Assembly: GCA_947441065.1 (NCBI GenBank)
Contig: CANESI010000005.1
Coordinates: forward strand, 1-64,000
Length of the DNA: 64,000 nt
DNA from: Caulobacteraceae bacterium
GTDB taxonomy: Bacteria; Pseudomonadota; Alphaproteobacteria; Caulobacterales; Caulobacteraceae
Direction of reading: 5' to 3'
Position numbers and translations under genes: made by a program. Every line of letters starts with the position of its first letter. Positions within the stretch are counted from its first letter, which is position 1. This document shows, piece by piece, positions 9,857-14,879 of this stretch. Under the pieces are notes generated by a model. It ran no database searches. It saw nothing but the letters and a program-made list of their open reading frames with translations, and was not told the DNA's origin.

Positions 9857-11704
<1,848 letters not shown>

Positions 11705-12080
11705 GGTTTGGGAACCGATTTTGTGCGGGTGCGAAAGGAAACAGGCGCGCGGCTTGTACGCGACTGTGAGCAACAAAGCCACCCCGAGCGGCTCGAAACT
11801 CGATAATGGGTGCAGAACAGTCACCCTTTAGCGGCAATTTGACCCAAGGGGCTGCGAGATAAAATCAGACGCCCAACCTTGTTTTTCCCCGCTGCGCGCT
11901 CATCTGTGAGGCTGTTCGGTCGCCTTTGCCCCACCCGACGGCTCGAACCTGCCCAGCCAACAGAATTATATTGCGGCGCAACAATTCCATCGAGAATCGT
12001 TAGGATATTGATTTATATCGATAAATCGTCCCTACTGTTAAAAAAGTCGATAAAAATGCAATTCGAGCTTTGTTTTTCGC

Positions 12081-12109
12081 TTGTTATTTTGTGCATCGCA
12101 CATTAGATA
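12081..12109 (+). promoter_or_regulatory. Predicted sigma-70 promoter of a small RNA
   Basis: TTGTTA (12081-12086), a 17-base spacer and TAGATA (12104-12109), in an AT-rich stretch. It points toward the hairpins and strong terminator listed next; transcription would start near 12116. Confidence 0.5.
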
Positions 12110-12115
12110 GGTCTC

Positions 12116-12198
12116 GTGAGGCGTCTCTGATGCCTCTGCCCTTCCTGGGCGTTTCCTCCCTAATGACTGGCCGCGCCTGATTGGCGCGGCTTTTTTTT
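12116..12198 (+). ncRNA. Candidate small RNA with a CCUCCC anti-SD-like stretch
   Basis: No protein-coding gene on this strand accounts for the strong terminator that ends here, yet a promoter lies 80 bases upstream. The predicted RNA has hairpin 1 (GAGGCG-N7-TGCCTC, 12118-12136, loop TCTCTGA), hairpin 2 (GCCC-TTCCT-GGGC, 12138-12150), a single-stranded region with TTTCCTCCC, and a terminator stem. Pyrimidine-rich CCUCC motifs can pair with ribosome binding sites and recur in alphaproteobacterial small RNAs (CcsR-type in Rhodobacter, GsrN in Caulobacter). Kinship with those is not shown; the similarity is in motif only. Confidence 0.55.
12170..12198 (+). terminator. Strong Rho-independent terminator
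   Basis: GCCGCGCC-TGATT-GGCGCGGC followed by eight T residues on the plus strand. On the other strand no T run follows, so it does not serve the amidohydrolase gene. Confidence 0.85.
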
Positions 12199-12210
12199 GG
12201 CTAAAGTTCT

Positions 12211-13116
12211 TTAGGCCAACCGTTCGGCCCACGGGCATGCCGCCAAAATTCCGATCAATCGATCCAGATTGCGCTTCAAGCCGGCAAAGCCTTGGCTGAG
12301 GGTCAGATCGGCCTCGTTCAGATAGAGACGGCGATTGATTTCGATCTGAAGGGCGTGGATCCCCTGTGACGGGCAACCATAGTGCTCAGTCGTATAGCCC
12401 CCGGCATAGGGGCTGTTGCGCGCCACCTGATAGCCCATGCGGGTCAGGCTTTCATCGACCAGACGCGTCAGGCCAGAGCCACAGGATGTGCCGTGGCGGT
12501 CCCCCAACACAAAATCACTGCCCGCCCGCCCCCAGCCGCCGCCAGAGGCCGCAGAGGGCATAGAGTGCCAGTCGATTAGCACTGCCAGCCCGTGTCGCTG
12601 CTGTGCCTGTCCGAGCAATTCCCTGAGGGCCGCATGATAGGGCCCATGGACCGTCTCGAGACGAGTCTGAGCCTCGGTGGATGCGAGCCGATGGCGATAG
12701 ATCTCTTGGCCCTCTGCCACGACCTTGGCGATGACGCCAAGGCCTGCGGAGACACGTGCTGAGGGCCGCACCTGATCCATCGGCAGGACGCCGTCAAACA
12801 TATCGGGGTCAAGTTCGAGCGGGGATCGGTTCACATCCAGATAGGCCCGGCCATAGGTCGCCGCGATCAGGCTCGCCCCTTGCGCCGGTCCGCCCGCGAT
12901 CAATTGGTCAACATAGCCGTCCTCAGACTGACGAATGGACAGGCCATCCAGCCGGGTCGCCTCCATCAGGGATGCGGGATAGTGTCGGCCCGAATGGGGA
13001 GAGGCGAAAACCAGTGCCGTTGACCGCGCCGCCTGCGTCAGAACGAAGGGCGCAGGATCAGAGTCAAGCTCTGCGAAGATTAGAGGGTCGGGCGAGGTCA
13101 TTAACCCCATCATCAC
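12211..13116 (-). CDS. N-formylglutamate amidohydrolase family protein
   Basis: 301 residues. Features of the family (FGase) include FASPHSGRHYP, a DVNRSPLELDP block, the metal-site LIDWHSMP and HALQIEINRRLYL near the C terminus. Family members hydrolyse N-formylglutamate to glutamate and formate in histidine breakdown, but no hut genes are near, so the natural substrate is open. The start may instead be the ATG at 13101. It is divergent from cpdR, an arrangement I recall from relatives of Caulobacter. Confidence 0.88.
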   Translation of the reverse strand: MMMGLMTSPDPLIFAELDSDPAPFVLTQAARSTALVFASPHSGRHYPASLMEATRLDGLSIRQSEDGYVDQLIAGGPAQGASLIAATYGRAYLDVNRSPLELDPDMFDGVLPMDQVRPSARVSAGLGVIAKVVAEGQEIYRHRLASTEAQTRLETVHGPYHAALRELLGQAQQRHGLAVLIDWHSMPSAASGGGWGRAGSDFVLGDRHGTSCGSGLTRLVDESLTRMGYQVARNSPYAGGYTTEHYGCPSQGIHALQIEINRRLYLNEADLTLSQGFAGLKRNLDRLIGILAACPWAERLA

Positions 13117-13219: not shown

Positions 13220-13576
13220 ATGACACGAATTCTCTTGGCCGAAGATGACGAGTCCCTACGCGGCTTTTTGGCCCGGGCGCTCGAACGCGCCGGTTTTGAG
13301 GTCAAGGCCTGCGCCGATGGGGAAGAGGCGGTCGCCGAGCTGGACGACCGCTGGGACCTTCTATTGACCGATATTGTCATGCCCGGCATGGACGGGATTG
13401 AGGTCGCCCGCCTGGCCGCTGCGCGCCAGCCCGACATGCCCATCATGTTCATCACCGGCTTTGCCGCCGTCGCCCTGTCGGCGGGCAACCAGACCCCGCA
13501 GGGCTCTAAGGTGCTGTCCAAGCCCATCCACCTTCGCGAAATCGTCACCGAAGTTGAAAAGCTGATGGCCGCCTAA
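13220..13576 (+). CDS. cpdR: Single-domain response regulator CpdR
   Basis: 118-residue receiver domain with no output domain. The acidic pair EDDE, phospho-acceptor Asp51 (LLLTDIVMPGMDG), Thr79 (MFITGF) and Lys101 (VLSKP) are all in place, and the length and wording match Caulobacter CpdR. Known role there: unphosphorylated CpdR binds ClpX and brings the protease to the pole so that cell-cycle regulators are degraded; the CckA-ChpT relay phosphorylates and blocks it. With rcdA, also in this window, it points to a conserved CtrA-degradation module. It is followed by a tRNA gene. Confidence 0.93.
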   Translation: MTRILLAEDDESLRGFLARALERAGFEVKACADGEEAVAELDDRWDLLLTDIVMPGMDGIEVARLAAARQPDMPIMFITGFAAVALSAGNQTPQGSKVLSKPIHLREIVTEVEKLMAA

Positions 13577-13795: not shown

Positions 13796-14086
13796 GCGTC
13801 ATTGAGAGGCGCAGCGCGCCGAAGGACGAGGATGTCCCACTCTCTCCGCCGCGTCCCCCGCGAAGGCGGGGGTCCAGATCAGGGCTAACCGGCCGTGGGC
13901 GCTCCGCAGGTCTGGGTCCCCGCCTGCGCGGGGAACACGGATGTGGGGGCAAGCTTCGGCGCGCGCGGCGCGCAATGACGCGAGTAAAGAAAACAAGGCC
14001 CTCACCCAACCCTCTCCCACAGGGAGAGGTCTAAGAGGTGATAAGCCCTCGCCCCCTTTAGGGGGAGAGGGTTGGGTGAGGGGGTC
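13796..14086. repeat. Composite palindromic repeat, copy A
   Basis: This stretch between tRNA-Val and the DUF4019 gene holds no gene. Module 1 is an imperfect palindrome around CCCGCGAAGGCGGGGGTCC ... GTCCCCGCCTGCGCGGGG, with outer arms GCGTCATTG... and ...CAATGACGC. Module 2 is CCCTCACCCAACCCTCTCCC ... GGGAGAGGGTTGGGTGAGGG. The part from about 13855 to 14086 recurs almost unchanged, in the same orientation, at 14650-14879. Both modules resemble short intergenic palindromes found in many alphaproteobacterial genomes. Confidence 0.85.
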
Positions 14087-14600: not shown

Positions 14601-14649
14601 GCTGGGCACACGGTGGAACGCGGCTGTGCGGCTCCCTCAACGCCGTCTT

Positions 14650-14879
14650 CCCCGCGAAGGCGGGGATCCAGATCAGGGCTAACCGGCCGTGGGCGCTCCG
14701 CAGGTCTGGGTCCCCGCCTTCGCGGGGAACACGGATGTGGGGGGTAAGCTTCGGCGCGCTTGGCTCGCAATGTCGCGATTAAAGGAAACAAGGCCCTCAC
14801 CCAACCCTCTCCCACAGGGAGAGGTCTAAGAGGTGATAAGCCCTCGCCCCCTTGGGGGAGAGGGTTGGGTGAGGGGGTC
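14650..14879. repeat. Composite palindromic repeat, copy B
   Basis: Near-identical direct copy of 13855-14086: same two modules in the same order, same spacer (AGATCAGGGCTAACCGGCCG) and the same GAGGTCTAAGAGGTGATAAG linker. Only scattered substitutions and a few small indels separate the copies. The outer arm found left of copy A is missing here. It fills the gap between the DUF4019 gene and the small gene ending at 14899. Confidence 0.85.

Follow-up and report, generated by a model that had tools for sequence, protein, structure and literature searches.

A small RNA gene of the alphaR8 family adjoins an N-formylglutamate amidohydrolase (FGase) gene in a Caulobacteraceae bacterium, with a conserved palindrome between its promoter boxes. 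Positions are those of the window, the whole 64,000-nt stretch of DNA that was analysed. We regard it as very probable that this FGase-linked RNA acts in trans, from a promoter that PhaR blocks and polyhydroxybutyrate (PHB) induces, through Hfq-aided pairing with ribosome binding sites and under the restraint of a CrfA-type sponge. PhaR on TTGTGCATCGCACAT, which fills the gap between the -35 and -10 boxes, would block the promoter, and PHB granules would titrate PhaR away and let the RNA be transcribed. The single-stranded UUUCCUCCCU would then pair, with Hfq, to ribosome binding sites resembling GGGAGGAAA and lower translation. A sponge RNA of the CrfA type, whose hairpin is GUUUC-GGGGAG-GAAAC, would pair with the same stretch and so remove the RNA. 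Neither the operator between the boxes nor the FGase linkage figures in an earlier sequence-only reading of this DNA.

Anatomy, family and conservation of the RNA gene

The gene has the layout of a compact, independently transcribed small RNA (Table 1). The sequence-only reading had listed a promoter, two hairpins, a pyrimidine-rich stretch and a terminator ending in T8 at 12081-12198, and sequence and fold bear out all of them; the T8 stands as given, while the terminator stem, put at 8 bp, folds with 9 pairs. The fold energy of the 84-nt strand is -40.4 kcal/mol, against -22.3 +/- 2.9 for 200 dinucleotide shuffles (z -6.3), none of which was as stable. UUUCCUCCCU is unpaired in both the minimum-energy and the centroid fold and lies 3' of the GCCC/GGGC hairpin. 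A scan of 11500-12700 gave four terminator-like sites against 1.1 expected, among which the RNA's own ranks first both in pairs (9) and in the length of its T run. As that reading held, no coding gene is seen on this strand: the open reading frame listing shows short frames, and three small frames over the region (75, 112 and 41 aa, on either strand) have no Pfam match.

Table 1. Features of the RNA gene, of its neighbours in the window and of the sponge hairpin elsewhere in the genome.
Feature	Position	Strand	Remarks
-35 element TTGTTA	12081-12086	+	TTG kept in 33/35 operator-bearing FGase-linked f1 loci
Spacer TTTTGTGCATCGCACAT, 17 nt	12087-12103	+	between -35 and -10; contains the predicted PhaR (AniA) operator
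Predicted PhaR (AniA) operator core TGCATCGCA	12092-12100	+	palindrome form TGCRNYGCA
-10 element TAGATA	12104-12109	+	
Predicted transcript, ~83 nt	12116-12198	+	probable 5' end G12116
5' hairpin GAGGCGUC-UCU-GAUGCCUC	12118-12136	+	8 bp, 3-nt loop in fold
Hairpin 2, UGCCC-UUCCU-GGGCG	12137-12151	+	GCCC/GGGC stem; paired columns invariant in 21 relatives
alphaR8 10-mer UUUCCUCCCU, anti-SD seed	12152-12161	+	sequence, fold, PMC12559287
Intrinsic terminator	stem 12169-12191, T8 12191-12198	+	scan, fold, covariation
Rfam RF00519 (suhB/MmgR, alphaR8) match	12131-12205	+	57.5 bits, cut-off 41
FGase, N-formylglutamate amidohydrolase	12211-13116	-	PF05013, 240.6 bits; convergent; marks the sisA/mmgR locus
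typA/bipA, divergent upstream neighbour	9857-11824	-	context only
Single-domain response regulator, CpdR-like	13220-13576	+	NF046022, 178.4 bits, just under cut-off 180; context only
CrfA-type sponge hairpin	G000:C30:31200-31216 (L042/L209)	-	GGCGUUUC-GGGGAG-GAAACGCC, then a terminator-like stem

The RNA matches a known family over the full length of its model. The covariance model of RF00519 (Rfam 15) is matched above its gathering cut-off (E 3.2e-9) over positions 1-77 of 77, and on this match 12131-12205 belongs to a known small-RNA family and the predicted RNA is itself of a known kind. Matches to GcvB, anti-hemB, the betaproteobacterial toxic sRNA, SorX, Hrs1, rli32 and rli42 all fell under their own cut-offs. 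The earlier prediction of a roughly 80-nt RNA under a promoter of its own thus finds its counterpart in the RF00519/alphaR8 anatomy. In the available text of PMC12559287, alphaR8 RNAs carry a single-stranded UUUCCUCCCU after a hairpin and then a terminator, and most species have a single alphaR8 RNA beside FGase, sisA being that copy in Caulobacter. The RNA resembles SisA of Caulobacter crescentus in each of these respects: family, UUUCCUCCCU after a hairpin, terminator and an adjoining FGase gene. Between the T run and the stop codon of that gene are 12 nt. If promoter spacing follows that of SisA, in which G33-C45 is GGCGUUUCCUCCC, the 5' end would be G12116, 7 nt past the -10 box.

Likeness to CcsR- or GsrN-type RNAs had been suggested earlier, and the pyrimidine-rich anti-SD stretch and the hairpins do recall them. 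CcsR RNAs, which act in stress, carry a CCUCCUCCC motif and have a DUF1127 gene (ccaF1) upstream; GsrN has a sigmaT-dependent promoter. Here CCUCCUCCC does not occur in 12081-12198, the motif is UUUCCUCCC, single and between hairpins, the upstream gene is typA and not DUF1127, the small frames have no Pfam match and the region matches a different Rfam family, RF00519; no GsrN appears among the Rfam names matched in the region. An RNA of either type is highly improbable, and the CcsR comparison was given up. Nor did we find evidence here for pairing by the loops UCUCUGA and UUCCU, which had been proposed alongside; loop 1 varies among relatives.

The promoter draws its support from conservation rather than from a consensus scan. 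Such a scan of 11500-12700 returned no promoters (0.3 expected); it leaves out the TAGATA promoter because its rule demands a -10 box ending in T. Among FGase-linked loci of family f1, which the genus names of sponge-hairpin matches suggest to be Caulobacteraceae, 33 of the 35 with a strict operator have it between a TTG and a TA....(A/T) box, and the predicted spacer is 17 nt long in 26 of those 33.

The RNA and its linkage to FGase are widespread. With the organism's own genome (G000) counted each time, over-cut-off RF00519 matches occur in 52 of the 60 relatives scanned; for the order the figure is 96 of 120 genomes, and for the class 44 of 96. We examined 153 loci, a part of the over-cut-off matches among relatives and order genomes, with the weak second copy (L002) and the pattern loci L033-L042 set aside; three had no core. 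FGase is convergent and downstream in 100 of the 150 loci with a core, one per genome, and the others comprise 45 copies without FGase and five with a more distant one. The sequence-only reading had looked to the typA locus for conservation, and this held in part: the RNA is conserved, and typA lies upstream in 26 of the 100 FGase-linked loci. The typA/bipA start is probably over-extended, TypA homology beginning at residue 48.

The predicted stems are kept among relatives through compensatory changes, the check that had been proposed for them. In 21 same-family loci, 99.3% of cells are paired and 8 of 20 pairs have changed on both sides (three in the 5' hairpin, four in the terminator stem and one inner terminator pair), a level reached by none of 500 shuffles, although the set was picked by eye, which favours the structure. 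Sliding the partner strand drops pairing in these loci to 35-53%, and the GCCC hairpin shows no variation among them. This set, in one register, replaced an alignment of 40 sequences in which the 5' hairpin shifts position from genus to genus and escaped RNAalifold. Only the 3' portion of that hairpin is covered by the RF00519 match, so that, unlike MmgR as modelled in RF00519, the RNA here has a covarying 5' hairpin lying mostly outside the family match. Shuffle figures, and the Markov figures below, overstate significance because related species are not independent; the family split of the operator counts and a class set with one locus per family give fairer views. That a terminator and promoter-like noise merely happen to lie between typA and FGase, with no functional RNA, is hardly credible given the Rfam score, the covariation, the conserved operator and promoter and the FGase synteny across families.

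Two further features of this part of the window may be recorded. The CpdR-like regulator at 13220-13576 is divergent from FGase, and the pair is kept together in many of the relatives examined. Beyond it, a repeat of about 240 nt occurs in two copies (13842-14086 and 14636-14879, about 795 nt apart) that are 91-94% alike over three pieces, with inverted-repeat arms and a 158-aa frame between them.

A predicted PhaR operator in the promoter

The spacer palindrome is most simply read as a predicted PhaR operator, because it fits the published consensus, has a precedent in Sinorhizobium meliloti, is conserved, recurs before phasin and PhaZ genes and occurs in a genome that encodes PhaR. The consensus is TGCRNYGCASMA (PMC6201568, as far as its text was available), and TGCATCGCACAT within the spacer fits it save at the last position. 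The precedent is MmgR, which like the RNA here has an RF00519 match over the cut-off and a PhaR palindrome in its promoter: in the available text of PMC12542648, MmgR rises on loss of PhaR (AniA), and the PhaR palindromes of the mmgR promoter are shifted in EMSA. Control of MmgR by NtrC has likewise been published, in sources available in part.

Conservation singles this palindrome out. Of the 100 FGase-linked copies of the order (100 genomes), 80 have TGCRNYGCA no more than 110 nt upstream of the core; 200 Markov runs gave a mean of 3.8 and at most 11. All 64 palindromes of this form were counted, and the runner-up occurs in 6 copies. By family, the operator is found in 35 of 40 FGase-linked loci of f1, 21 of 23 of f2 (by genus names, apparently the Hyphomonas group), 4 of 16 of f3, 1 of 1 of f4 and 19 of 20 of f5, where it often lies further upstream and in two copies. 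Copies outside this linkage have it too, 14 of the 45 that lack FGase and 2 of the 5 whose FGase is more distant, and it is therefore not exclusive to the FGase-linked copy. In the class set, 24 of 28 loci have FGase and 14 have the operator, while the next best palindrome reaches 3; its 28 loci come from 28 other families and are the best-scoring of 44 over-cut-off genomes, the organism's own and G007 apart.

The same motif marks PHB genes in the organism's own genome. TGCRNYGCACA followed by TA occurs in five places, against one for a reversed control. One is the promoter of this RNA; others lie upstream of a phasin gene (PF09361), on whose opposite side a peptidase gene starts, just upstream of PhaZ (PHB depolymerase; TIGR01849, 628 bits) and upstream of a 126-aa frame weakly like PhaH (32 bits, cut-off 250). 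The genome encodes PhaR itself (107.4 bits), beside a thiolase gene, so that palindrome and regulator occur together. The fifth of these places, a PhaR-like site (L033 1501-1514, G000:C3:47207-47220), is followed after 335 nt by an ExbB/TolQ-type gene; a link between PHB state and TonB energy supply is possible there.

The palindrome of an alphaR8 RNA might instead be bound by another regulator or be a mere part of the promoter, with near-constitutive expression. We think this rather unlikely. It draws on PMC12559287, whose available text describes SisA of C. crescentus as nearly constitutive, and on family f3, in which 12 of 16 copies have no strict motif although 23 of 24 genomes encode PhaR. 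Against it, the motif differs from the published PhaR consensus in its last letter alone and resembles the bound sites of S. meliloti, it marks the phasin and PhaZ genes of the same genome, and it is conserved far beyond other palindromes. Altogether 20 of the 100 FGase-linked loci have no strict operator, the 12 in f3 among them, and 7 of the 20 keep a relaxed form. Of ten PhaR-less genomes of the order, only G053 has the RNA over the cut-off, and it is uninformative on the link because its PhaR-bearing genus-mates also have no operator. By eye, f3 copies without TGCRNYGCA at FGase-linked loci (L016, L026, L056, L064, L068, L072, L104 and L118) share a palindrome-like box, roughly YGCANNTGCGA, at about the same place.

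The predicted PhaR operator would link this RNA family to PHB in an order for which we did not find such a reading of the promoter in the open-licence literature. There, as far as its texts were available, PhaR is tied to the family in S. meliloti only, and the name PhaR has no occurrence in the text of the SisA paper (PMC12559287). The link looks old, since the operator precedes 80 of the 100 FGase-linked loci of the order and half of the class-set loci from other families.

A sponge hairpin and candidate targets

A hairpin with the features of the C. crescentus sponge CrfA occurs elsewhere in the same genome. CrfA sponges SisA in C. crescentus; its G49-C63 (15 nt) is protected by SisA-D, and G49-G54 has been swapped for a tetraloop (PMC12559287, available text). 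The 6-nt loop of the hairpin here fits the letters given for G49-G54 and its 15-nt stretch those for G49-C63. RGGGAGGAAAC has three sites in the genome, and one, G000:C30:31201-31211 (-), forms the loop and 3' arm of the hairpin. The 15-nt GGGGAGGAAACGCCC of the sponge pairs with GGGCGUUUCCUCCCU of the RNA at all 15 positions, 14 of them Watson-Crick and one G-U. Over the whole length, the sponge duplex comes to -60.6 against -51.5 +/- 5.5 for shuffles, modestly beyond them, with -69.6 the lowest of 500.

The hairpin recurs in families that carry the RNA. The exact form GTTTC(G/T)GGGAGGAAACG is present in 24 of 25 f1 genomes (among them the organism's own), all 24 f2 genomes and none of the 71 other genomes of the order; a wider pattern is found in 58 of 120 genomes, against 3 for its reversed form. 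A scan of named genomes gave at least 118 hairpin stretches. The 80 matches listed fall in Caulobacter, Brevundimonas, Phenylobacterium, Asticcacaulis, Hyphomonas, Henriciella and scattered other genera, which we take for mostly chance.

Its genomic setting may also match that of CrfA. In the organism's own genome the hairpin lies downstream of hisG, and a Caulobacter vibrioides MAG has the same hairpin (L283) downstream of a gene 70% identical to that hisG; L283 is presumably the crfA locus. The likeness to CrfA is drawn from the residue letters named in PMC12559287, available in part, together with L283. The neighbourhood varies: among 24 loci, a hisG-like gene is close upstream in 13, a peptidase-like gene downstream in 16 and either in 22, and one or the other accompanies 51 of the 80 matches listed. 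In C. crescentus the sponge belongs to the SisA system, and the hairpin here would have the same part. Its presence in Hyphomonas-type genomes may widen the known reach of CrfA.

The anti-SD stretch is the likely pairing region, as the sequence-only reading had proposed: in the available text of PMC12559287, SisA represses a TonB receptor mRNA through the same 10-mer, as judged by a point change in the seed and its compensation. The genome also encodes Hfq (112.5 bits), which may assist such pairing. TonB receptor starts as a class pair no better with the RNA than other starts (median -10.9 kcal/mol for 33 receptors and -11.1 kcal/mol for 48 other genes, p 0.57) in a rough comparison based on 35 stretches for 38 receptor matches, two of them without a start in range, with starts picked by hydrophobicity, several of which look internal, and with the first ATGs of long window frames as background. 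Single strong pairing sites do exist. A genome scan for GGGAGGAAA found eight sites, as many as its reversed control. Two lie just before start codons, those of an MFS_2 sugar transporter (L346) and of an Lrp/AsnC regulator that starts with TTG (L343), and these two genes are candidate targets only.

Sibling copies and carbon signals

C. crescentus has four sibling RNAs, SisA-D (PMC12559287, available text), whereas in the genome here a single RF00519 copy exceeds the cut-off and a second candidate is weak. The weak candidate (L002 1501-1582, G000:C43:16902-16983, +; 31.9 bits, under the cut-off) precedes the gene of a class II tRNA synthetase, read as prolyl, and has GTTTCTCCCGA in place of the core.

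Some copies without FGase carry palindromes of another kind, all of them in family f1. GGTAGCGCTAAC or a close form lies upstream of 6 of the 45 (L043 and L055, both with variant letters, and L058, L059, L069 and L151), and TGACAACGTTGTCA stands at a similar place in four (L092, L103, L110 and L134). Of the 45 unlinked copies, 6 contain the inner TAGCGCTA and 4 the inner GACAACGTTGTC; among the 100 linked ones the numbers are 0 and 2. These counts were made after the LacI-type motifs had been spotted by eye. GGTAGCGCTAAC fits the xyl-box, TGGTAGCGCTAACA; in Caulobacter the LacI-type XylR binds a xyl-box (PMC10380989, available text). One genome (G144) has four copies over the cut-off with four different upstream sequences: the PhaR form with a distant FGase (L074), a xyl-box-like palindrome (L043), TGACAACGTTGTCA (L134) and none of these (L114). 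At the sponge locus this genome and the C. vibrioides MAG share about 90-92% identity.

We see about an even chance that alphaR8 RNAs are interchangeable reporters of carbon state, with a shared seed and CrfA sponge and a separate carbon-sensing repressor for each copy. The FGase-linked copy would answer to PhaR, and thus to stored PHB, in much of the class, and other copies in Caulobacter-like genomes to repressors at LacI-type palindromes. Distinct repressor sites for each copy would account for two observations in the available text of PMC12559287: the four C. crescentus siblings differ in expression, and no motif is common to the upstream regions of sisA-D.

The palindrome offers a testable input signal for the sisA locus of the order and suggests how the cell switches the RNA on. 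If the carbon-state reading is true, the siblings would combine different carbon signals in a single post-transcriptional output.
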